The notes beneath the pieces are model-generated. The model was given only the letters and a program-made list of their open reading frames with translations, was not told the DNA's origin and searched no databases. Positions 42,085 through 58,724 of a stretch of 58,724 bases of DNA are shown in pieces; within the stretch, counting starts at the first letter, position 1; every line of letters begins with the position of its first letter. The position numbers and the translations under genes are program-made. Source of the stretch: Desulfoluna sp. (GTDB taxonomy: Bacteria > Desulfobacterota > Desulfobacteria > Desulfobacterales > Desulfolunaceae); assembly GCF_030145185.1 (NCBI RefSeq), contig NZ_JAQYWB010000036.1, forward strand, positions 1-58,724, given 5' to 3'.

Positions 42085-42156
42085 TATTTCATCCTCACAC
42101 TGTGGGGGGAGAATGCAGTTTTTTGGATTGATTTTATATACATGTGGAGTGTGTCA

Positions 42157-43467
42157 ATGGAATTTATCAAGAAGGCAGAGCTTAGCTTTGAAGAAGTAAG
42201 TGACCAGAAGCGCGTCATCGTCGAAGGGATTCTCAAGGACATTGAAACCCGAGGCGAAGAAGCCGTTCGTGATCTGGCCAAAAAATTTGACAACTGGGAA
42301 GGCGATTTTGTTCTTTCCGAAGAAAAAAAGCAGGCCCTGATCGATCAGGTTCCCCAGTCCGTTAAGGATGATCTTCAGTTTGCCTACGATCAGGTTTTTG
42401 GCTTCGCCAAGGCTCAGCGCGAAAGCATCGTTGAGTTTGAAAAAGAGACGATCAAAGGTGTCCGCCTCGGTCAGAAGGTCATTCCCATGGAAGTGGCGGG
42501 TTGCTACGTTCCCGGTGGCCGTTTTGCCCACGCCTGTTCTGCCATTATGAGCGTTGCGACTGCCAAGGCTGCCGGTGTGAAAACCGTCATCGCCTGCTCC
42601 CCTCCCCGAGGCGACAGCATCGCACCTGCCGTGGTTTACGCCATGCATATTGCCGGTGCTGATATTATCATCGAGATGGGCGGCGTTCAGGCCATCGCTA
42701 CCATGGCTTATGGTCTCTTCACTGGCAAGCCCGCCAACATCCTTGTCGGTCCCGGTAACGCCTTTGTTGCCGAAGCCAAGGCGATCCTTGCTGGCACCGG
42801 CCGCTGCGCCATTGACGTATTTGCCGGCCCCACAGAGTCTTCTGTGATCGCTGACAAGACCGCCGATGCGATGACCGTGGCTGTTGACCTGGTTTCCCAG
42901 GCAGAGCACGGACTCGATTCTCCTGTATGGCTTCATACCGACTGCCGTGAGTTGGCCGAAAAGGTCAACGAACTGATGCCCAAAGTGATTGCCGACATGC
43001 CCGACCCCGAAACGCCTGCGACTTCCTGGAGGGATTTCGGTGAAATCGTTCTCTGCGAGAGCCGAGAAGAGCTGGTGAAGGTCAGTGACGAGTACTCTTC
43101 CGAGCACGTTCAGGTCATGGCCGAAGATCTGGATTGGTGGGTCAAGAACCTGACGAATTACGGATCTCTTTTCTTGGGTGAAGGCAGCACCGTGCCCCAG
43201 GGTGACAAGTGCTCCGGTACAAACCACATCCTCCCCACCAAGAAAGCCGGTTACACCTCCGGTGGTCTGAACGTTCACAAGTTCCTTAAGATCATGACCT
43301 ATCAGGAGATTACGCCTGAAGCCAACAAGGTTGTCAGCGGTGCGGCTTCCCGCCTCTCCCGTGTTGAAGGCATGGAAGGCCACGCTCGCGCCTGTGACTG
43401 GCGTCTGCGTAAGTTCTTTCCCAGCGAAGTATGGGATTTCGAAGTCTACAACCAGACCAAGTACTAA
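42157..43467 (+). CDS. Histidinol dehydrogenase-family NAD-dependent dehydrogenase, copy 1
   Basis: 436 residues. The HisD fold is complete. Predicted zinc ligands Gln248 and His251 (SQAEHG), Asp350 (QGDKCSGTNH) and His409 (EGHARA), and the catalytic pair Glu316-His317 (SSEHVQV), are all present, so it should be an active Zn/NAD alcohol dehydrogenase. It is not in a his operon, exists twice here, and lies beside methyltransferase genes, so histidine synthesis is unlikely. Relatives such as HpsN oxidise sulfopropanediol; other members act on unknown alcohols. ATG 42157 begins MEFIKKAEL as in copy 2; an ATG five codons upstream is also open. Promoter and palindromic operator are upstream, a terminator downstream. 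Confidence 0.85.
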   Translation: MEFIKKAELSFEEVSDQKRVIVEGILKDIETRGEEAVRDLAKKFDNWEGDFVLSEEKKQALIDQVPQSVKDDLQFAYDQVFGFAKAQRESIVEFEKETIKGVRLGQKVIPMEVAGCYVPGGRFAHACSAIMSVATAKAAGVKTVIACSPPRGDSIAPAVVYAMHIAGADIIIEMGGVQAIATMAYGLFTGKPANILVGPGNAFVAEAKAILAGTGRCAIDVFAGPTESSVIADKTADAMTVAVDLVSQAEHGLDSPVWLHTDCRELAEKVNELMPKVIADMPDPETPATSWRDFGEIVLCESREELVKVSDEYSSEHVQVMAEDLDWWVKNLTNYGSLFLGEGSTVPQGDKCSGTNHILPTKKAGYTSGGLNVHKFLKIMTYQEITPEANKVVSGAASRLSRVEGMEGHARACDWRLRKFFPSEVWDFEVYNQTKY

Positions 43468-44453: not shown

Positions 44454-45203
44454 TTATTCGTTATCCTTCGGGGGGAGGGCGGGCTTTTCAGCATGGAACA
44501 CCTCCTCGGTGTCCATGCTCTGGCAGAGGATTTGGCCGGGAGGGATACGGACAAATTGGGAGGTGTCCCATGGGCCGAAGAGAAGCGCCTTGATGTAGGT
44601 GGAGGCACCCTTCATGGTGGACAGGGGCAGGCGGGAACGCTTGGCGGCTTCGGCGGCTTTATCACGGAAGGTCTCTCCCAGCCCCGGCCATTCGATGAGG
44701 CAGGCCCGGGTGTAGTTGGCAAGAACCCCCTCTTCCATCTCCATGAGGAGCTTTGCTTTGTCTGATCCGTATTGCTTCTCGTAGTGGGCAAGGCGCATCG
44801 TTTGGTTGTCCAGGTAGGGCAGAACCGACCAGGTAAGCCATCCCGGTGAAAACCAGTAGGTGCCGCATTCGCGGCTGTGTTCTTTCTGATGGGCCGCCAC
44901 GGAGCCTATAAGCAGGGGGATGCAGTCATGGACCCGTGGGAGTACCAACTCACAGCGCTCTGCCCGTATGCCGGTGAGGCCCTGTCCGCAGAGCCCATAG
45001 CCCAGAATCAGGTGGGTGAGTGTTGGGTTTGCGCTCTCCACTTCATTTATTTTGGCCTGAAGCTCCTCTTTCAGGAGCTTTGGGGTGTCATGGAGTCCCT
45101 GGCGAAGAAAGTGAAGGCTCGGGGCCTTCTCTTTCTGGCTGTCCGCACAAAGCTTTTCCATTTCATATCGCATCACTTCGCAGGCGATCACCGCTCTATT
45201 CAT
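44454..45203 (-). CDS. DUF1638-family protein
   Basis: 249 residues. MNRAVIACEVMRYEMEKL at the start and ILGYGLCGQGLTGI, HDCIPLLIGS and GTYWFSPGW blocks identify DUF1638, a family that recurs beside corrinoid methyltransferase genes in methanogens and anaerobic bacteria. Its function is not established; conserved Cys/His (ECGTYWFSPGW, RVHDC) suggest metal or corrinoid handling. Two adjacent ATG codons (45206, 45203) follow GAGGAGGGAGG; I use the second. It is last in the operon, 38 bases after the CobW-type gene. Confidence 0.8.
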   Translation of the reverse strand: MNRAVIACEVMRYEMEKLCADSQKEKAPSLHFLRQGLHDTPKLLKEELQAKINEVESANPTLTHLILGYGLCGQGLTGIRAERCELVLPRVHDCIPLLIGSVAAHQKEHSRECGTYWFSPGWLTWSVLPYLDNQTMRLAHYEKQYGSDKAKLLMEMEEGVLANYTRACLIEWPGLGETFRDKAAEAAKRSRLPLSTMKGASTYIKALLFGPWDTSQFVRIPPGQILCQSMDTEEVFHAEKPALPPKDNE

Positions 45204-45241
45204 CATCCTCCCTCCTCGGGTGACGTTCACCCGGCGCTTCT

Positions 45242-46135
45242 CTACGCTAAGAATCCGGCCTCTTTGAGGCGATTTTGGACCCCTTCCCCTTTGTCCTGCA
45301 TGGTGATGACCACCACGGGGGTAAGATTCTCTTTCTCTTCTCTTTTTTCGATGGCGGCTCCGGTATCTGAAATGTAGTAATGGCGGCCGTTTTCTGTCAG
45401 GCATCCTTTCACGCGCAGGAGATCCTCTTCCTTTTCAAGGGCATTGAGAAAGGCGTCGATGGGTCCGTTGACACTCTCGACGGTAAAGGCATCGGGTCGG
45501 TTGTCCGAGGTGTTGAGGCTGGGCATCATGGCAAACGGATTTTCCATCTCTTTTTTCAGGCGGTCCACATCAAACCGGCAATGGGTGGTGGGAAAGATGA
45601 TCGCCCGGTTGTTTTTCTCTCGAATATAGGCTGTGGCGGCGTCCACGTCTTTCTGGGGGGCAATATCGATTTTGTTGAGAAGGATATAGTGGGCGTTTGA
45701 CACCTGGCGTTCGATGGTGGTCAGGTTTTGGGCCAGTTTGAGGCTTTTGATGGCGTCAAAGACGCAGAGGGTGCACATGAGCTCGCACACATCGGCGAGT
45801 CCTGCGTTTCGAATCATGGGGCTGATACCTGAGGGGTCGGCCATCCCGGAGGCTTCCACCAGGATCAGGTCAGGGCTGCATTCGACCAGGGCTTTGAGGC
45901 CAAGGGCGAAGCTGTCCTTGAGGCAGGCGCAGAAGATGGACCCGCCGTTGACTTCGTAGAGCATGTCATCAGGGATGCCGTGTCCGGAGAGAACGGCTGC
46001 ATCCACAGGGACCTCGCCAAAGTCGTTTACGAGAACGGCGACTTTTTTGTCCGAAAATTGATGGAGAAGGTACTGCATCAGGGTGGTTTTTCCGCTTCCG
46101 AGGAAGCCGGTAAGGACAACGATGGGGGTTTTCAT
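45242..46135 (-). CDS. CobW/COG0523-family G3E GTPase
   Basis: 297 residues. The P-loop is TGFLGSGKTTL (9-19), the base motif LNKID, with Walker B/switch LILVEASGMADP. The metal-binding CxCC motif of the family is altered to FCAC (GGSIFCACLKD), leaving a C-x-C. Such GTPases insert metals or cofactors into partner enzymes. Position after the corrinoid protein and before DUF1638 suggests cobamide or zinc loading of the methyltransferases. A C-terminal CobW_C-like domain (about 215-297) is present. Confidence 0.85.
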   Translation of the reverse strand: MKTPIVVLTGFLGSGKTTLMQYLLHQFSDKKVAVLVNDFGEVPVDAAVLSGHGIPDDMLYEVNGGSIFCACLKDSFALGLKALVECSPDLILVEASGMADPSGISPMIRNAGLADVCELMCTLCVFDAIKSLKLAQNLTTIERQVSNAHYILLNKIDIAPQKDVDAATAYIREKNNRAIIFPTTHCRFDVDRLKKEMENPFAMMPSLNTSDNRPDAFTVESVNGPIDAFLNALEKEEDLLRVKGCLTENGRHYYISDTGAAIEKREEKENLTPVVVITMQDKGEGVQNRLKEAGFLA

Positions 46136-46325: not shown

Positions 46326-46979
46326 CTAAGCGGCGATGCCCATGAGTTCCTTAGCCATTTCCACACACTTGGATGCATCGGCGGCGTAGCCGTCACATCC
46401 TGCATCTGCGGCGAACTGGGGGTTCAAGGGGGCGCCGCCTACGAGGACCTTGTATTTGTCCCGCACGCCTTTGGCTTTCAGGAGTTCCACGAACTCGGGG
46501 ACAATGGACATGCAGGTGGTCATGAGGGTGGAGAGGCCCACGATGTCGGCATTGTTTTCTTCGGCTGCTGCGAAGATTTCTTCTTTGGACTTGTCGCTGC
46601 CCAGGTCAATGACGTCGAATCCAGCAGAACGGAGCATCAGGGCCACGATGTTTTTGCCGATGTCGTGGAGGTCGTCTTTTACTGTGGCGATGACCACTTT
46701 GCCCAGCTTCTGGTCGGCGTTGCCGGCGGCAAGCATGGCAGGCTCGATGATGGCAACCGCAGAGTCGGCGGCACGACCGGCAAGCATCAGCTCGGGAAGA
46801 AAGCAGTCGCCGTTGCTGAAACGCTCACCCATGATATCGAGTCCCGTGCGGATGCCGTAGGTGATGAGGTCAACAGGTTCAACACCGTCAGCAATAGCGG
46901 TGGTGGCAATCTCTGTTGCGCCGGCGGCGTTGAGGGAGGTGATGGCATCGCGAAGGTTGTCAAAATGAATCTGAGACAT
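46326..46979 (-). CDS. Corrinoid methyl-carrier protein (MtmC/MttC type)
   Basis: 217 residues. An N-terminal helical cap domain (about 5-88, with EPVDLITYGIRTGLDIMGERF) and a C-terminal Rossmann B12-binding domain with the lower-ligand motif DLHDIGKNIV (His105) and later GLSTLMTTCM and VLVGGAPLN. It accepts a methyl group on Co(I) from the substrate-specific methyltransferase and passes it on. It is the only corrinoid protein in the window, although two substrate methyltransferases are present. AAGGAGTACACC precedes ATG 46979. A 147-base gap separates it from the mtmB-like gene. Confidence 0.93.
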   Translation of the reverse strand: MSQIHFDNLRDAITSLNAAGATEIATTAIADGVEPVDLITYGIRTGLDIMGERFSNGDCFLPELMLAGRAADSAVAIIEPAMLAAGNADQKLGKVVIATVKDDLHDIGKNIVALMLRSAGFDVIDLGSDKSKEEIFAAAEENNADIVGLSTLMTTCMSIVPEFVELLKAKGVRDKYKVLVGGAPLNPQFAADAGCDGYAADASKCVEMAKELMGIAA

Positions 46980-47126: not shown

Positions 47127-48497
47127 CTATTTAATGGGGACACCCATTTCAACGAGTTCTGCTTTCACCTCTTCATACATTTTCTGGTAGAAATCCTTGG
47201 GTGTGTTGGTGTCGAGATCGAAGAGCTCGGGGTAGGTCATGCCCAGGTCGGGTGTATCCAGGGTGTGCTCGTATTTCTCGAGGAGCTTGACGACGATGGG
47301 GCTTGCCTGAGCCCTTGTGAGCTGGCAGGCCGCGTCGGCCATCTCGGTGTGGAATTTGGGCTCCAGGGGCGTCATGCCATCCATTTTTACGCCAGCAGCG
47401 GGGAAGGGGGTGCCTGTGGTGACCCCTGAGGTGACGCCGGTGAGGATGTAGGCCGCAGACTGATAGAAGTATTCTTTGGTCCCGGCACCGGCGGCGGAGT
47501 ATCCGGAGTTGTAGGTGGCCAGGTAGATGTTACGGGAGATGGCCTGTGAACCGAGCCCGAGGCCCCAGAGGAGCTGGCGTGTGGTGGAGATGGCCCCTTT
47601 AAGGGTGACAGGGAAGTTCAGGAAGTAGGTGGCACCCAGCATGCAGGACATCATGGCGTAGGCTGTGACGCCGACGGCGATGCCTTCGGGGCCGCCGCAG
47701 TAGCCGCCTAATAGGGTACTGGCTTCCCCGGCGATGTTGCCGCCGATTTCCTGGAGGAAACACATTTTGTTCAGGGTGTCCATTTTGAGCTTGTACTCGG
47801 GGTAGAAGGCGCAGAGCCATCCGTCGGAGGTGCGGGTGCCGCAGTTGGGGTGGCTGGCCGCAATGGTGCTGACGGGGCCGCCGGAGGCGGGAACCACGTT
47901 GAAGACAGGGAAGCCGGGACGTCCAGCGTTCTCAGTGGCCTTTCTGGCCATTTTCATGTTGTGGATACAGGCCATGACTTCCGAGGGGTGAAAGGGCACG
48001 TCGGAGTTGCTCTCGGGATCGTTCATCAGGGTCGGGACGGCCATGGAATCGGCGCGGTCGATGCGGGCGTAGCCTTCCACCAGCTTGAGGAAGAGCTCAT
48101 CGGTGCTGGTGTAGATACCGGAACCGATATGGCACCAGGGACGAGAGTTCTCGTCGGGCTTGCGGCAGCGCCATTCTCTGCGGCTCTCTTTCTCACCGCC
48201 GATGCAACGGGGACGGGCCGAATCACCGATAGCGTAAAGAATCTCTTCTTTGGTGAACTTAACCACGCGCCCGGTGTCCTGGCAATACATGCCGGTATTA
48301 ATGAAGAACTCAAGGGCAGCTTCAAAGACACGATCAGCCAGATCGTCATCGGACGAGACGGGATCAGCCGGATTGTATTTAATGTTGTGTTTCTGAACCA
48401 CTTGCATGATCCCGGGGAAAACAACATTAATATCGAAGTCGGTCTCGTTCATTTCTTCGCCGTTAAGGCATCTTCTGTAGATGTCGATGATTTTCAT
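47127..48497 (-). CDS. MtmB-family methyltransferase lacking pyrrolysine
   Basis: 456 residues, close to archaeal monomethylamine methyltransferase MtmB (458). Recognisable blocks are GMYCQDTGRVVKFTKEEI, AGRPGFPVF, GGYCGGPEG, ISTTRQLLWGLGLGSQAISRN and DTNTPKDFYQKMYEE. In MtmB the sequence after AGRPG is MGV followed by pyrrolysine (residue 202, UAG); here that place is Phe199, an ordinary TTC codon at 47903-47901, and there is no internal stop. Pyl-dependent amine binding is therefore not expected, so the substrate probably differs from monomethylamine. ATG 48497 follows TAGGAG. The frame is open 54 codons further upstream but lacks family resemblance. The stop is TAG. Operator and promoter lie about 250 bases upstream. 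Confidence 0.85.
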   Translation of the reverse strand: MKIIDIYRRCLNGEEMNETDFDINVVFPGIMQVVQKHNIKYNPADPVSSDDDLADRVFEAALEFFINTGMYCQDTGRVVKFTKEEILYAIGDSARPRCIGGEKESRREWRCRKPDENSRPWCHIGSGIYTSTDELFLKLVEGYARIDRADSMAVPTLMNDPESNSDVPFHPSEVMACIHNMKMARKATENAGRPGFPVFNVVPASGGPVSTIAASHPNCGTRTSDGWLCAFYPEYKLKMDTLNKMCFLQEIGGNIAGEASTLLGGYCGGPEGIAVGVTAYAMMSCMLGATYFLNFPVTLKGAISTTRQLLWGLGLGSQAISRNIYLATYNSGYSAAGAGTKEYFYQSAAYILTGVTSGVTTGTPFPAAGVKMDGMTPLEPKFHTEMADAACQLTRAQASPIVVKLLEKYEHTLDTPDLGMTYPELFDLDTNTPKDFYQKMYEEVKAELVEMGVPIK

Positions 48498-50953: not shown

Positions 50954-52699
50954 CTAATCCTCTGCGAAGATCATGCGGTTCATGTATTCGGAGCTGAAGG
51001 ATTTGTGGGCGGACAGTTCAATGTGCCGCGTGTGGTGGCGAATGGTGTCTGCCGTTTCGATCCCCTTTTTTTCTGTGGCATAACGAAGGGCACCGAAGGA
51101 GGCGGCATTGCCCAGGACAGAAATTTTGTTCAGGAGCCCGTGGGGAATCATGCCGATGCGCGTAGCGCTTTCCGGGTGTATGGCAGAACCAAAGCCTCCG
51201 GCAAGGTACAGGGTGTCGATGTCATCGCAGGTGACCCCTGCTTCCTGCATGAGAATTTCGATGCCGGCACGGAGAGCGGCCTTGGCCAGCTGGACTTCCC
51301 GGATATCCTTTTGGGTAAGGAAGACCCGCGGGGTGAGGTTGAACCGGATTTGATTTTTTTCTCCTTCGATGGAGTCTGCGAGGGTTCCGCGTGACTGAAG
51401 ACGCCCGGTGGCATCCATGGCCTCTTCATCCAGGAGCAGGGCAATGGCATCGATGACGCCAGAACCGCAGAGCCCGGTGCTTGGACGATCGTCAATCACC
51501 GTGAGCCCAAATCCTTCATCAGTCTGGAAGACGGAGTCGATGGCACCGGGCTGGCCCGGCATACCACAGCTGAGGTTGGCCCCTTCAAAGCAGGGACCGG
51601 CGGCCGCTGAGCAGGCATAGCAGGTCCCGTTTGCGTAGAGAACGGTCTCAGCGTTGGTGCCGATGTCGGCCATGAGAAAGTTTTTGTCTTTGCCAACGGC
51701 ACCCGTGGCCAGAAGGGAGGCGACGATGTCCGCCCCGATATATGCGGAAACTCCGGGGAGCAGCAAGGCTCGGCTATCGGAGAGAATACCCAGGTCGCGG
51801 GCAGGCATCTGCATGGCGCTCAAGGTGGCCGGAATAAAGGGGGCCTTGCTGATGAACTCAGGGTCTATGCCGCACAGGAGGTGCATCATGGTGGTGTTGC
51901 CGGCCAGGGCGATCAGGCTGACGTCATTGACGTCGCAGCGGGTGAGAAGGCCTGCCAGCATGGAGTTCAGCTGATCGATAATGGCAGAATTCAGCGCGTC
52001 GGTGCTGTGTTCCATGCAGTATTGGATGCGGGTCATGACATCGGCACCGAAAGGCGCCTGGGCATTGTGGGAACCGCTGACGGCCAGGGTTTTACCTGTG
52101 GTCAGGTCCACGATCATGCCGGCGACGGTGGTGGTTCCGATGTCCACGATCAACCCCAGGTGGTCTGCTTTATCGCTGTAGCCCACAAGGGTCTCATTGG
52201 AGAGGAGAGCGTACCCTGAAAAGGACTGGCGACGAAGGAAATCAGGGAGTTTCCGAAGTTGGTCGAGGGAGAGGGCGTTCTCGGTTGCGCCGACGCTCTT
52301 CATCAGGCGGTCAATGTCCGGTTCCTGGTCGAGGATCGCAGGGGCAGGTGCCTGGAAAAATTTTTTGGTCAGGGCGGGTTCCAGGGTATATTCCGAGGTG
52401 CGGAACCGGGTCAGGACCTTGAGGTCCTGCCTGTCTGCGATGGTGATGTTCATGCCTTCTGAGGGCCATGTATAACAAGCGAGGCGTACTCCGGCCTCAA
52501 GTTCCATGGGGGTCAGGTGGCTTTTTTCCTCGTCGGAGGGGGTCGTCTCGCATAAAATTCGGCATTTTCCGCATTTACCGATGCCGCAGGGCGCCACGAT
52601 GAGCCGGGCTTCGCGAAGCGAACCGACAATGGGTTTGTCTTTGGGGACGACAAGGGAACTCTTTTTTTGGTCGTGGGTGACGGTGATGGTAACAGTCAT
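50954..52699 (-). CDS. RamA-type reductive activator of corrinoid proteins (DUF4445/ASKHA)
   Basis: 581 residues. An N-terminal [2Fe-2S] ferredoxin domain has Cys38, Cys43, Cys46 and Cys75 (PCGIGKCGKC ... LACYT). A linker leads to the DUF4445 ASKHA ATPase domain with LIVDIGTTTVAGMIVDL, ADIGTNAETVL and GLCGSGVIDAIA phosphate-binding loops, and the C-terminal LYLAGGFGSAI. Such proteins use ATP to reduce adventitiously oxidised Co(II) corrinoid back to Co(I). Bacterial members carry [2Fe-2S], archaeal RamA two [4Fe-4S]. It lies between the UroD-type and MttB-type genes, with its own terminator. Confidence 0.95.
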   Translation of the reverse strand: MTVTITVTHDQKKSSLVVPKDKPIVGSLREARLIVAPCGIGKCGKCRILCETTPSDEEKSHLTPMELEAGVRLACYTWPSEGMNITIADRQDLKVLTRFRTSEYTLEPALTKKFFQAPAPAILDQEPDIDRLMKSVGATENALSLDQLRKLPDFLRRQSFSGYALLSNETLVGYSDKADHLGLIVDIGTTTVAGMIVDLTTGKTLAVSGSHNAQAPFGADVMTRIQYCMEHSTDALNSAIIDQLNSMLAGLLTRCDVNDVSLIALAGNTTMMHLLCGIDPEFISKAPFIPATLSAMQMPARDLGILSDSRALLLPGVSAYIGADIVASLLATGAVGKDKNFLMADIGTNAETVLYANGTCYACSAAAGPCFEGANLSCGMPGQPGAIDSVFQTDEGFGLTVIDDRPSTGLCGSGVIDAIALLLDEEAMDATGRLQSRGTLADSIEGEKNQIRFNLTPRVFLTQKDIREVQLAKAALRAGIEILMQEAGVTCDDIDTLYLAGGFGSAIHPESATRIGMIPHGLLNKISVLGNAASFGALRYATEKKGIETADTIRHHTRHIELSAHKSFSSEYMNRMIFAED

Positions 52700-55340: not shown

Positions 55341-56651
55341 ATGGAATTCATTAAAAAAGCAGAGCTCAGCTTCGAAGACGTGAGCGATCAGAAGCGTGTG
55401 ATCGTCGAAGGCATCCTCAAGGACATTGAAACTCGTGGGGAAGAGGCCGTTCGTGACCTGGCCAAAAAATTTGACAACTGGGAAGGGGATTTCGTCCTTT
55501 CTGAAGAAAAAAAACAGGCCCTGATCGATCAGGTTCCTCAGAGTGTCAAGGATGACCTCCAGTTTGCCTTCGACCAGGTGTCTGGTTTCGCCAAGGCTCA
55601 GCGTGAGAGCATCGTTGAATTTGAAAAAGAGACCATTAAAGGCGTGCGTCTCGGTCAGAAAGTCCTCCCCATGGAAGTGGCTGGCTGCTACGTTCCCGGC
55701 GGTCGTTTTGCCCACGCCTGTTCAGCCATCATGAGTGTGGCCACTGCCAAGGCAGCCGGTGTTAAAACCGTCATTGCCTGCTCCCCTCCCCGTGGCGACA
55801 GCATCGCACCTGCCGTGGTTTACGCCATGCATATTGCCGGCGCTGATATTATCATCGAAATGGGCGGCGTCCAGGCGATTGCTACCATGGCTTACGGTCT
55901 CTTTACCGGCAAGCCCGCCAACATCCTTGTTGGCCCTGGTAACGCCTATGTTGCCGAAGCCAAGGCGATCCTCGCCGGTACCGGCCGCTGTGCCATTGAC
56001 GTGTTTGCCGGCCCCACAGAGTCTTCTGTGATTGCCGACAAGACAGCTGATGCCATGACCGTTGCTGTCGACCTCGTTTCTCAGGCAGAACATGGTCTTG
56101 ATTCTCCTGTATGGCTCCACACCGATTGCCGCGAGCTGGCCGAGAAAGTCAACGAGCTGATGCCCAAGGTGATTGCTGACATGCCCGACCCCGAAACTCC
56201 CGCCACTTCCTGGAGGGATTTCGGAGAGATCGTTCTCTGTGAAAACCGTGAAGAACTGGTGAAGGTGAGTGATGAGTACTCATCTGAGCATGTCCAGGTG
56301 ATGGCTGAAGATCTGGATTGGTGGGTGAATAATCTTTCCAATTACGGTTCACTTTTCCTTGGCGAGGGCAGCACCGTACCCCAGGGTGACAAGTGCTCCG
56401 GTACCAACCATATCCTCCCTACCAAGAAAGCCGGTTACACCTCTGGTGGCCTGAACGTTCATAAGTTCCTCAAGATCATGACTTACCAGGAGATCACACC
56501 CGAAGCCAACCGTGTGATCAGTGGCGCCGCATCCCGTCTTTCCCGCGTGGAAGGCATGGAAGGTCACGCCCGCGCCTGTGATTGGCGTCTGCGTAAGTTC
56601 TATCCTGGCGAAGAGTGGGATTTCGAAGTGTACAATCAGACCAAGTACTAG
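55341..56651 (+). CDS. Histidinol dehydrogenase-family NAD-dependent dehydrogenase, copy 2
   Basis: 436 residues, differing from copy 1 at only 13 positions by my count (about 97% identical), all away from the predicted active-site residues, which are conserved. Nucleotide identity is much lower in the first 120 bases (about 85%, nearly all synonymous) but almost complete in the middle. ATG 55341 is preceded by ACGGAGA; the 27-codon upstream extension is not shared with copy 1. The aminotransferase gene follows 95 bases downstream and is probably co-transcribed. The two likely act in sequence on the same carbon skeleton. Confidence 0.87.
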   Translation: MEFIKKAELSFEDVSDQKRVIVEGILKDIETRGEEAVRDLAKKFDNWEGDFVLSEEKKQALIDQVPQSVKDDLQFAFDQVSGFAKAQRESIVEFEKETIKGVRLGQKVLPMEVAGCYVPGGRFAHACSAIMSVATAKAAGVKTVIACSPPRGDSIAPAVVYAMHIAGADIIIEMGGVQAIATMAYGLFTGKPANILVGPGNAYVAEAKAILAGTGRCAIDVFAGPTESSVIADKTADAMTVAVDLVSQAEHGLDSPVWLHTDCRELAEKVNELMPKVIADMPDPETPATSWRDFGEIVLCENREELVKVSDEYSSEHVQVMAEDLDWWVNNLSNYGSLFLGEGSTVPQGDKCSGTNHILPTKKAGYTSGGLNVHKFLKIMTYQEITPEANRVISGAASRLSRVEGMEGHARACDWRLRKFYPGEEWDFEVYNQTKY

Positions 56652-56746: not shown

Positions 56747-57955
56747 ATGGGAAACGCATCTGTTAAACGGTTTACCAAGGAATTTACTCAGCAGGAAGCC
56801 ATCAGTGAAGAGTCCATTGAGCGCGCGGTTGAAATTATGCGCACCGGAAAACTTCACCGTTACAATGTCAGTGCCGGTGAGAAGGGCGAAGCCGCTCTTC
56901 TTGAAGAGGAGTTTGCCGCCTACATGGGCGCAAAGTATTGTCTCTCCTGCGCGTCATGCGGCATGGCCATGTACCTTGCGTTGAAAAGTGTCGGGGTTGA
57001 GCCCGGTGATAAAATTCTCTGCAATGCGTATACGCTGGCCCCGGTTCCCGGTGCCATCCATAACGCAGGTGCTGAAATTGTTCTGGTTGAGATCACCGAT
57101 GATTACACCATTGACTTGGAAGACCTCGATAAAAAAGCTGCAGACCCTGATGTGAAATGGTTCCTTATTTCTCACATGCGTGGCCATTTGACCGATATGG
57201 ATCGTTTGATGGCTATCTGTGAAAAGCATGGGCTGGTTTTGATTGAAGATTGCGCTCACACCATGGGTGCTACCTGGGACGGAAAGAAGTCCGGTTCCTA
57301 TGGCAACGTGGGCTGCTTCAGCACACAGACTTATAAACATATGAACTCAGGTGAAGGTGGATTGCTTACTACCGACGACCCCGAGGTCATTGCTCGTGCC
57401 ATTATCCATTCCGGTTCCTACATGCTCTACGAAGGGCATACGTCAAGGCCCGGTATGGAGGTGTTTGAAAATATCAAAAAGCTTACCCCCAACTACTCCA
57501 GCCGCATGGACAACCTCCGCGCTTCATTGCTTCGATTTCAGCTTCGCAATTTGGACAACCAGTGCAAACGCTGGAACGAGCGTTACCGTGTCCTGGAAGC
57601 CGGGTTCAACACGATCCCCGGCATCACCTGTCCCAAGCGTCCTGAAAAAGAAGTTTTTGTGGGCAGTTCCATTCAGTTCTCCCTTGTGGGACAGGATGAA
57701 ACCACCATCCGCAAATTTCTTGCAGCGGCCCTTGAACGTGGTGTGGAGTTGAAATGGTTTGGGAATTCCGAACCTGTTGGATTTACCAGCGCCTACGGCA
57801 GCTGGCAATACTTCGACAATCTTCCGGAACTCAAAGAGACCAACCGCATTCTCGCAGTGATGTGTGATATGCGCGTTCCCCTGACCTTTGATTTGGATGA
57901 CTGTCGGCTGATTACAGAAATTGTTGGCCAGGTTGCCAAAGACGTTCTTTCTTAG
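56747..57955 (+). CDS. DegT/DnrJ/EryC1/StrS-family PLP aminotransferase
   Basis: 402 residues. The fold is evident from CLSCASCGMAMYLALKSVGVEPGD (short hallmark ALKSVGVEPGD), VLIEDCAHTMGA, and the PLP lysine Lys197 in QTYKHMNSGEGG. Most family members aminate keto-sugars. Some non-sugar members exist, and its position behind a HisD-like dehydrogenase in a catabolic island suggests transamination of a small keto or aldehyde product (or its reverse). The Cys-rich patch near residue 67 (SCASCG) is unusual. CAGGAGG is four bases before ATG. A terminator follows. Confidence 0.85.
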   Translation: MGNASVKRFTKEFTQQEAISEESIERAVEIMRTGKLHRYNVSAGEKGEAALLEEEFAAYMGAKYCLSCASCGMAMYLALKSVGVEPGDKILCNAYTLAPVPGAIHNAGAEIVLVEITDDYTIDLEDLDKKAADPDVKWFLISHMRGHLTDMDRLMAICEKHGLVLIEDCAHTMGATWDGKKSGSYGNVGCFSTQTYKHMNSGEGGLLTTDDPEVIARAIIHSGSYMLYEGHTSRPGMEVFENIKKLTPNYSSRMDNLRASLLRFQLRNLDNQCKRWNERYRVLEAGFNTIPGITCPKRPEKEVFVGSSIQFSLVGQDETTIRKFLAAALERGVELKWFGNSEPVGFTSAYGSWQYFDNLPELKETNRILAVMCDMRVPLTFDLDDCRLITEIVGQVAKDVLS

Positions 57956-58019: not shown

Positions 58020-58691
58020 TTTGTACCGAATAATTTGAGTTTTTTTGGGGGGGCGGGGTTTTAGGGAATCCCGATTGATTTTTTTTATAGGGTGAGGCGA
58101 GGTCCTGTTTTTTGAGAAAATACTGAAGGTGTTCGGAAGTTTCATGCCGCACTTTCAGCTCCTCGCGAATGAATTAGGGTACGATCTGAATCATGGCGTC
58201 AGAGGGTTCTACGGGAAGAGAACTTCTGATTGATGACAATGGATACGGCGTAAATCTATTGAAGATTGCTTCCGTCATGCGACTGCATTCTTGACGGTTG
58301 CCTGGCTTTAAATTGGGGCCAGAGGTTGCATGAAAAGTTACCAGGTTTAATCCTTAAAAGGATGAGCCTCTGAGGTGGTCTGAGTATATTTTGACTTTCG
58401 TTCAGAGATTTGCAGGGCAGTTCATGTGTCACCGCATCATGGATTGGCTTGTTTGGAGGTCTCGTGAAAGGAAGGATGATCATTTTCAGAATAGGTATGT
58501 CAGTTTTGTTTGCGGGGGTGGCCCGTATTCAAATATGTCCTCTATAAACAGGGGGCCCGTTTCCTTCGGGGCGGTTCAGGATGTGGGTTATTTGAAGGTG
58601 CTAAATGTTGACATTTAACACGTATAACTTTTGTTCTGGCGCTCAACAAGGATGATGGAACTTGTTGCAACAACGACGTTAGGAGGAAGAG
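58020..58691. other. Intergenic region before the last partial gene
   Basis: No gene supported. TAAATGT-tg-ACATTTA (58602-58617) is a perfect inverted repeat, and CAACAAG/CTTGTTG (58644-58650 with 58661-58667) forms a second. Both could control the gene at the window edge. Confidence 0.5.
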
Positions 58692-58724
58692 ATGTTCAGG
58701 AAACTTTGTATTACCGCCATCGCA
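58692..58724 (+). CDS. Start of a gene cut by the window edge
   Basis: Only 11 codons are visible, MFRKLCITAIA, after a strong AGGAGGAAGAG ribosome site. The basic start and hydrophobic run look like a signal peptide or lipoprotein leader, so an exported solute-binding protein for the catabolic island is a reasonable guess, but not shown. Confidence 0.55.
   Translation, partial: MFRKLCITAIA

Follow-up and report, generated by a model that had tools for sequence, protein, structure and literature searches.

Introduction

Why the monomethylamine methyltransferase MtmB needs pyrrolysine (Pyl), the 22nd amino acid, and what roles its many Pyl-free relatives play is a live question. It is posed here by a gene encoding a protein of 456 amino acids, P0001, in a contig of 58,724 nucleotides (NZ_JAQYWB010000036.1 of assembly GCF_030145185.1; contig C93 below, and "the window" for the whole stretch analysed) from Desulfoluna sp., Desulfoluna being a marine sulfate-reducing bacterium. 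An initial annotation, made from the letters alone, had described the product as an MtmB homologue with phenylalanine in place of Pyl and had considered a new substrate likely. We likewise find it probable that P0001, an MtmB-family protein, acts as a corrinoid-dependent demethylase, needs no pyrrolysine for this, and takes its methyl group from an N-methylated substrate that is not monomethylamine. This conclusion is carried by the family of the protein, its predicted fold, the loss of Pyl together with two partner residues, genus-wide conservation and a conserved gene cluster.

The accompanying remark that Pyl-free MtmB-type proteins are hardly described is outdated, as numerous ones are known. 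One study expressed a non-Pyl MtmB homologue, MtqB of Methanococcoides methylutens Q3c, showed by assay that it acts on tetramethylammonium and choline, and presents it as the first non-Pyl MtmB with a shown function; the tree in that study covers 1,061 MtmBs with and without Pyl, and leaves the remaining non-Pyl functions unknown (PMC13044021, 2026). That such a homologue proved active supports our reading of P0001. Another non-Pyl MtmB superfamily protein was strongly raised on dichloromethane (PMC9768040, 2022), and three corrinoid-dependent methyltransferases were detected in a Desulfoluna proteome (PMC7031245).

Results and Discussion

P0001 is a full-length MtmB-family protein

The coordinates first given for the gene are correct, and it lies on the minus strand, where 48497 to 47127 reads as one open frame; the plus-strand translation is interrupted by stops. 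A Shine-Dalgarno-like TAGGAG lies upstream of the ATG, and the frame, which closes with TAG, contains no in-frame TAG. The sole Pfam family of P0001 is PF05369 (MtmB), matched at 229.7 bits (gathering score 25) over profile positions 2-449 of 450, with no unrelated family on top; at E ≤ 0.001, NCBIfam models gave no match, and a phmmer search of the PDB returned MtmB1 only (1l2q/1nth and 1tv2/1tv3/1tv4; E 2e-41). The AlphaFold model of P0001 (predicted local distance difference test, pLDDT, 92.7) superposes on 1nth with Z 54.3, a root-mean-square deviation of 1.7, a template modelling (TM) score of 0.94 and 25% identity over 446 of the 456 residues, the next family by fold being MttB/MtgB at a Z of about 23. 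P0001 is a full-length PF05369/MtmB protein, as the initial alignment had it, and is predicted by the model to adopt the MtmB TIM-barrel fold.

Phenylalanine occupies the pyrrolysine position

In the phmmer alignment the last residue of GRPGFPVF in P0001 stands over the X (Pyl) of GRPGMGVX in MtmB1, and in a MAFFT alignment of 108 rows Phe199 shares a column with residue 202 of Methanosarcina barkeri MtmB1. The Pyl enzymes that we fetched have TAG at this place, in the context RPxxxx-O-G, and the difference is therefore not an alignment slip; a misalignment at residue 199 was ruled out by the agreement of three alignments. The in-frame TAG for Pyl at position 202, required of a Pyl-dependent monomethylamine methyltransferase, is absent from P0001. 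The change extends beyond this residue. Positions E229, E259, Q333 and Y335 of MtmB, which we take to surround or contact Pyl, are Glu, Glu, Gln and Tyr in all ten Pyl rows; in the alignment E259 and Y335 are kept in P0001 (E258, Y333) and E229 and Q333 are replaced by L228 and S331, which leaves the protein without the four-residue set of the Pyl-dependent enzymes.

Phenylalanine is present at the Pyl column in 6/6 Desulfoluna rows and in one further row, L043. Across 97 non-Pyl rows the commonest residues there are M (28), I (17) and H (16), followed by F (7), L and K (6 each), Y (5), V (4), G (3), and C, T and N (1 each), with two gaps, and a 98th non-Pyl row, L064, has M. Phenylalanine was rejected as a diagnostic residue on account of this variety among relatives.

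Searches for the Pyl machinery in the window's genome covered PylS (top score 21 bits against a cut-off of 178.15), PylB (148.8 against 348.2) and PylD (no match); each placed 1 of 14 control genomes over the cut-off. PylS also remained under its cut-off in 7/7 genomes behind named loci, including D. spongiiphila and D. limicola, the latter genome titled complete. These results agree with the initial proposal of a cell that lacks pyrrolysine as far as PylS, PylB and PylD are concerned (PylC and tRNA-Pyl were not searched), and TAG does serve as an ordinary stop, ending four of the seven cluster genes, that of P0001 among them.

P0001 belongs to a conserved and deeply separated Desulfoluna clade

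The gene occurs once in each of the 6/6 genomes of the genus searched (own included), and the other five products are 88-97% identical to P0001. A tblastn scan was evaluated over the best 80 of 99 matches, comprising 77 distinct loci; among the matches listed, those at 88-97% come from a Desulfobacteraceae metagenome-assembled genome (MAG), D. spongiiphila, D. limicola, D. butyratoxydans and a Desulfobacterales MAG, and the next reach at most 44%. Between the window and the other Desulfoluna the ratio of nonsynonymous to synonymous substitution rates (dN/dS) is 0.03-0.07. Because the gene is present in all six genomes with phenylalanine in all six rows and so low a ratio, it is neither a chance open reading frame (ORF) nor a decaying one, and is under strong purifying selection. 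Of 395 genomes sampled from the phylum, the window's own among them, 13 gave an MtmB match of any kind.

Two trees were computed, a quick one of 108 rows and a careful one of 48. The larger left out 16 rows shorter than 440 residues (fragments, some with masked letters), five duplicates and 24 of 33 full-length Pyl rows; its ten Pyl rows are MtmB1 and sequences from the phylum of an archaeal genome, G400, the scan of which returned mostly TAG-containing MtmBs. Sampling is biased, most of the non-Pyl rows having been retrieved by a non-Pyl query, and the 98 Pyl-free rows among the 108 are to be read accordingly. The Pyl enzymes, included in the 108-row tree only, form one clade (support 100). 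The Desulfoluna rows form a clade of their own, whose stem measures 1.2-1.4 changes per column. Its place within a bacterial group of 39 rows is firm (100/100), that with a set of phosphonate-linked loci less so (27 rows, 92/72; 26 rows, 69/71); the tree program warned that the join of the Desulfoluna stem with that of L057/L045 may be false, two long stems meeting there.

The Desulfoluna sequences thus make up a branch of their own, newly described here, set on a long stem and distant from the Pyl enzymes; whichever way the doubtful join falls, this is not a fresh loss of Pyl. That P0001 might be a monomethylamine methyltransferase that lost Pyl recently, with weak activity or in decay, would agree with its family and with the slight monomethylamine activity reported for MtqB (PMC13044021), whereas the long separate branch, the fixed phenylalanine, the low dN/dS and the concurrent change of E229 and Q333 make this highly improbable.

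A conserved gene cluster surrounds P0001

Along the minus strand the cluster runs in the order UroD-family protein, RamA, MttB-like protein, MtmB-like protein, corrinoid protein, CobW and DUF1638 protein (Table 1), and a methyltransferase, a corrinoid protein and a reductive activase are encoded together. The initial annotation, right about the family and the Pyl site, had missed this cluster with its MttB-like partner, corrinoid protein and RamA/DUF1638 pair, as well as the fact that phenylalanine as such is not the signature. The corrinoid protein is the only one found in the cluster; it scores 185.2 bits against TIGR02370, below the cut-off of 215.3, and its PDB matches include 3ezx, a monomethylamine corrinoid protein, and 7xcn, an MttB corrinoid protein. 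In 61 of the 77 loci the MtmB gene has a corrinoid-protein gene within 500 bp, and in 65 within 3 kb. The closest solved structures to the MttB-like neighbour, P0002, are the glycine betaine methyltransferase 9yce and 2qne. The longest ORF of the DUF1638 gene extends to 45404, overlapping CobW, and the alternative start was checked.

Table 1. Features of the window discussed in the text (positions are those of the whole stretch)
Feature	Coordinates	Strand	Evidence or remark
Pyl-free MtmB-family methyltransferase P0001, 456 aa, ATG..TAG	47127..48497	-	PF05369, 1nth fold match, 6/6 genus genomes
Phe199 codon TTC at the Pyl202 position	47901..47903	-	phmmer and MAFFT alignments, codon check
UroD/MtaA/MtbA-family protein with an extra C-terminal ~90 aa	52934..54283	-	PF01208 200.9 bits; 4ay7 alignment
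RamA/RACo-type corrinoid reductive activase	50954..52699	-	PF14574, PF17651, PF17650
Pyl-free MttB-family methyltransferase P0002	49012..50448	-	PF06253 343 bits; no in-frame stop
Presumed cognate corrinoid protein (B12-binding and cap)	46326..46979	-	PF02310/PF02607
CobW-type GTPase	45242..46135	-	PF02492 124.5 bits
DUF1638 protein, 250 aa, presumed corrinoid-reactivation partner of RamA	44454..45206	-	PF07796 118.7 bits
HpsN-like dehydrogenase, first copy (context)	42142..43467	+	HpsN 8v35 E 3.5e-150; lies downstream of the cluster, convergent
HpsN-like (sulfopropanediol dehydrogenase/HisD family), second copy (context)	55341..56651	+	Divergent from the cluster; first gene of the aminosulfonate operon
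DegT-family aminotransferase (context)	56747..57955	+	PF01041; same operon
TRAP solute-binding protein gene, first codons, cut by the contig end (context)	58692..58724	+	Overlap with the end of C50

The cluster order is the same in D. spongiiphila, D. limicola and D. butyratoxydans, and the MtmB, MttB, corrinoid and UroD-family proteins are its best conserved parts (84-97%). The dN/dS values between the window and other Desulfoluna are 0.05-0.06 for MttB, 0.05-0.11 for the corrinoid protein, 0.05 for the UroD-family protein and 0.15-0.19 for RamA. All three species carry a TRAP solute-binding gene between RamA and MttB; the ORF list of the window has no such ORF at this place. In D. limicola, a 174-residue MttB-like ORF that looks like a truncated MttB lies upstream of the UroD gene and adjoins a BCCT-like gene (L153:2340-2864). 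Elsewhere in the window, three plus-strand ORFs (255, 275 and 276 aa) between 38065 and 40757 have no Pfam or NCBIfam match at E 0.001, and the window has no Rfam match at the gathering score.

The UroD-family protein has Phe-x-Cys at the place of the MtbA His-x-Cys and keeps the second Cys in the 4ay7 alignment; the Phe, both Cys and a CAAC motif are present in 4/4 Desulfoluna sequences. His-Cys-Cys is the zinc site of S-methyltransferases in the UroD/MtbA superfamily (PMC10418091). The C-terminal stretch bearing CAAC is weakly thioredoxin-like (1nho, E 9e-4; PF13192, 15.6 bits, under the cut-off), and the model of this UroD-thioredoxin protein (pLDDT 44.5) was not used.

DUF1638 and RamA-like proteins have been tied to corrinoid reactivation by fitness data from Phaeobacter (PMC5764234), and in R. 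pomeroyi both are more abundant on betaine-type substrates (PMC12478193). Since RamA-like and DUF1638 proteins with a separate corrinoid protein also make up the split methionine synthase set of Phaeobacter (PMC5764234), and betaine demethylation and methionine synthesis have parts in common in R. pomeroyi (PMC12478193), the cluster could be an anabolic methyl shuttle of that type instead of a catabolic system; no homocysteine or pterin methyltransferase is recognised in it, and it encodes two substrate-side methyltransferase families instead, which renders the anabolic alternative improbable.

The genome contains two other MttB-family genes, each adjoining a BCCT transporter gene. Corrinoid-protein genes, identified by eye, are near both, and one locus also has an activase (by eye) and a pterin-binding methyltransferase (PF00809); both loci look like ordinary betaine modules. 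The cluster of P0001, unlike them, has no BCCT transporter, which speaks against the proposition that P0001 is an MtqB-type enzyme for tetramethylammonium and choline. MtqB resembles P0001 as a Pyl-free MtmB homologue with its own corrinoid protein, is the sole such homologue with shown activity, and belongs to a clade said to include bacteria (PMC13044021). It is a methanogen enzyme, however, likened here to P0001 by published description and not by sequence, and its branch lies near the Pyl-encoding MtmBs according to the Figure 6 legend of that study, whereas the Desulfoluna clade is far from the Pyl clade and nested in other bacterial lineages. Members of the MtqB clade would be expected to show its conserved active-site Met and Cys. 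We regard an MtqB-type function as unlikely.

Comparison with known systems and proposed mechanism

P0001 shares with M. barkeri MtmB (1NTH/1L2Q) full-length homology, the predicted fold, E259 and Y335, and an associated corrinoid protein and RamA-type activase. It differs in having Phe for Pyl202, Leu for E229 and Ser for Q333, in coming from a genome without PylS, PylB or PylD over the cut-off, and in being bacterial with an MttB-like partner. The non-Pyl MttB family (MtgB and relatives), to which the neighbour P0002 belongs, likewise consists of Pyl-free corrinoid methyltransferases for N-methyl compounds, but is another Pfam family (PF06253) with the distant fold likeness given above.

In the mechanism that we propose, Phe199 would help to form a pocket for a substrate whose methyl group needs no covalent activation by Pyl, such as a quaternary or protonated tertiary ammonium. 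The methyl group would pass from the substrate to Co(I) of the corrinoid protein encoded at 46326-46979, which the MttB-like enzyme would serve as well, and the two demethylases may strip successive methyl groups or act on two related substrates. RamA and the DUF1638 protein would return oxidised Co(II) to Co(I), and the methyl group would then be transferred to tetrahydrofolate or another acceptor, via the UroD-family protein or the pterin-binding methyltransferase mentioned above (L117:13642-14502), which could serve the window cluster.

Several observations weigh against P0001 being such a demethylase. No tetrahydrofolate methyltransferase gene was seen in the cluster, and in the UroD-family protein the His of the MtbA-type His-x-Cys site is missing, which leaves the methyl-acceptor step in doubt. 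The MttB-like partner could have a separate role, and in 12 of the 77 relatives' loci a corrinoid-protein gene was not seen in the stretch fetched. With the window's genome in 152 contigs (96.9% complete and 3.9% contaminated by tool), its missing pyl genes are strong evidence only together with the PylS result for D. limicola. The demethylase function itself is a prediction from sequence, fold model and gene context.

Relatives encoded beside phosphonate genes

Pyl-free MtmB genes beside genes for PhnW, PbfA or PhnX were observed in MAGs labelled Planctomycetota, Chloroflexota and Syntrophaceae (L057:3818-9191, L037:1-9371, L045:58-3790, L038, L039 and L035). These six loci are 41-43% identical to P0001 by tblastn and, in the matches listed, are among its nearest named relatives outside the genus. 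They differ from it in having M, C, G or L at the Pyl column, tandem MtmB copies in 5/6, and the phosphonate genes, and no UroD/RamA/CobW/DUF1638 set was seen in them save a DUF1638 gene in L038. PhnW is over the cut-off in L037 and L057 and PhnX in L045, and L035 has a PhnW and a PhnX 65% and 58% identical to those of L037/L057 and L045, respectively. In L057 four bases separate the end of the PbfA ORF from the MtmB ORF that follows it on the same strand. A cluster of 18 class-III aminotransferases recurs in 14 of the 77 loci; 11 of the 18 members were scanned (seven were not), and 6 of these 11 are not PbfA. For the L032 permease and the L032 and L038 solute-binding proteins the best matches, all under the cut-off, are aminoethylphosphonate ABC transporter models.

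Genes for PhnW, PbfA or PhnX are present in 6 of 16 loci on the branch beside Desulfoluna by a strict count, or 7 of 16 by a lenient one that admits L032 solely via sub-cut-off homologues, compared with 0 of 56 other loci and 0 of 5 Desulfoluna loci; matches at or below 36% identity were excluded. Fisher tests give 5e-5 (strict) and 8e-6 (lenient) for loci that are not independent and markers drawn from the same loci. The 16-locus group was set from the 108-row tree before counting, when PbfA in L057 had already been seen, and median locus length is 15,950 bases in this group versus 12,995 in the others. N-methyl-aminoethylphosphonate is reported to be widespread in nature and to be no substrate of PhnW, and the flavin enzymes PbfB-D are a known route for it (PMC10590968). 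Given the 6/16 against 0/56, the gene context suggests that Pyl-free MtmBs on the neighbouring branch are corrinoid demethylases for N-methylated aminophosphonates. L045 and L057, with no corrinoid-protein gene in the stretch available, count against it. A search of literature from which most subscription journals are missing turned up no statement linking Pyl-free MtmB or corrinoid demethylation to aminophosphonates, and a word search in a paper on the genomic context of PbfA met neither methyltransferase nor corrinoid nor MtmB (PMC12366243).

The Desulfoluna substrate, too, might then be an N-methylated aminophosphonate, an idea that gains from the phosphonate genes at six neighbouring loci and from the columns in common with the rows of that branch (L228 in 20/20, E258 in 16/20, Y333 in 17/20). 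The absence of these genes from all five Desulfoluna loci, PhnX scores under the cut-off in 6/6 genus genomes (PbfA and PhnW were not searched genome-wide), and a placement whose support is only 69/71 to 92/72, with the program's warning about the long-stem join, make it quite unlikely.

An aminosulfonate operon adjoins the cluster in some genomes

On the plus strand the cluster is flanked by two HpsN-like genes whose products are 97% identical. The first (42142-43467), which has the same place in D. butyratoxydans (L030), scores 504 bits for HpsN against 224 for HisD, and on these scores a role of the hisD-like neighbours as histidine genes was rejected. The second opens an eight-gene operon, HpsN-DegT-SBP-DctQ-DctM-CuyA-racemase-GntR (SBP, solute-binding protein), and DegT followed by SBP-DctQ-DctM-CuyA is found in L154, L168 and L171. 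In the window the operon is cut by the contig end: 138 bp (58587-58724) overlap the end of contig C50 (L116) at 97.1%, and C50 carries SBP-DctQ-DctM-CuyA-racemase-GntR. This end overlap and the conserved operon order suggest that C93 and C50 adjoin. In D. butyratoxydans (L154) and, by the inferred join, in the window's genome, the operon start and the divergent UroD gene are about 1.1 kb apart, so that cluster and operon adjoin in two of three testable Desulfoluna genomes, one of them by that join; the D. spongiiphila contig is too short to place the operon relative to the cluster. CuyA (D-cysteate sulfo-lyase) is over the cut-off in 6/6 genus genomes. The solute-binding proteins encoded inside the cluster in the sister species share 77-80% identity with the one of the L154 operon and 85-88% with the C50 protein. 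A TRAP solute-binding protein about 63% identical to the cluster one is also encoded on contig C18 of the same genome (L119:8467-13402), beside a UroD-family protein; genes for a regulator (assigned by eye) and a corrinoid protein are close by. This is a second association of methyltransferase and TRAP genes in the genome.

That a HisD-family enzyme shares an operon with CuyA points to a sulfonate-respiration operon in which cysteinolate or 2,3-dihydroxypropane-1-sulfonate (DHPS) would be oxidised, and HpsN, because of its likeness to histidinol dehydrogenase, might act on cysteinolate in Desulfoluna. A link of the cluster to N-methylated aminosulfonates is possible, and these compounds are the boldest candidate for its substrate. 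The widest form of this idea, which we put forward tentatively and with considerable doubt, is that Pyl-free MtmBs include a demethylase family for N-methylated aminophosphonates and aminosulfonates. In the former case, freed aminoethylphosphonate (or its 1-hydroxy form) would pass to PhnW, PbfA or PhnX, as a corrinoid counterpart of the PbfB-D route; in the latter, the Desulfoluna MtmB/MttB pair would demethylate N-methylated taurine or cysteinolate and pass the product to the HpsN-DegT-TRAP-CuyA operon. Against it stand the D. limicola genome, where the HpsN-CuyA operon (L168) is away from the MtmB cluster, the missing TRAP gene in the window where three sister species have one inside the cluster, the 10 of 16 neighbouring-branch loci without PhnW, PbfA or PhnX, the tree program's warning about the long-stem join, and L045 and L057, which show no corrinoid-protein gene in the stretch examined.

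Implications

For a family in which nearly all substrates are unknown, the Desulfoluna-specific cluster and the phosphonate/sulfonate lead matter, and the locus offers close relatives in three described Desulfoluna species, a compact cluster and gene-context leads that name specific compounds. If sulfonate demethylation takes place in Desulfoluna, it would supply a sulfate reducer with sulfite as well as a methyl group; and if the phosphonate/sulfonate proposal holds, one enzyme family would link C1, phosphorus and sulfur cycling in anoxic sediment.

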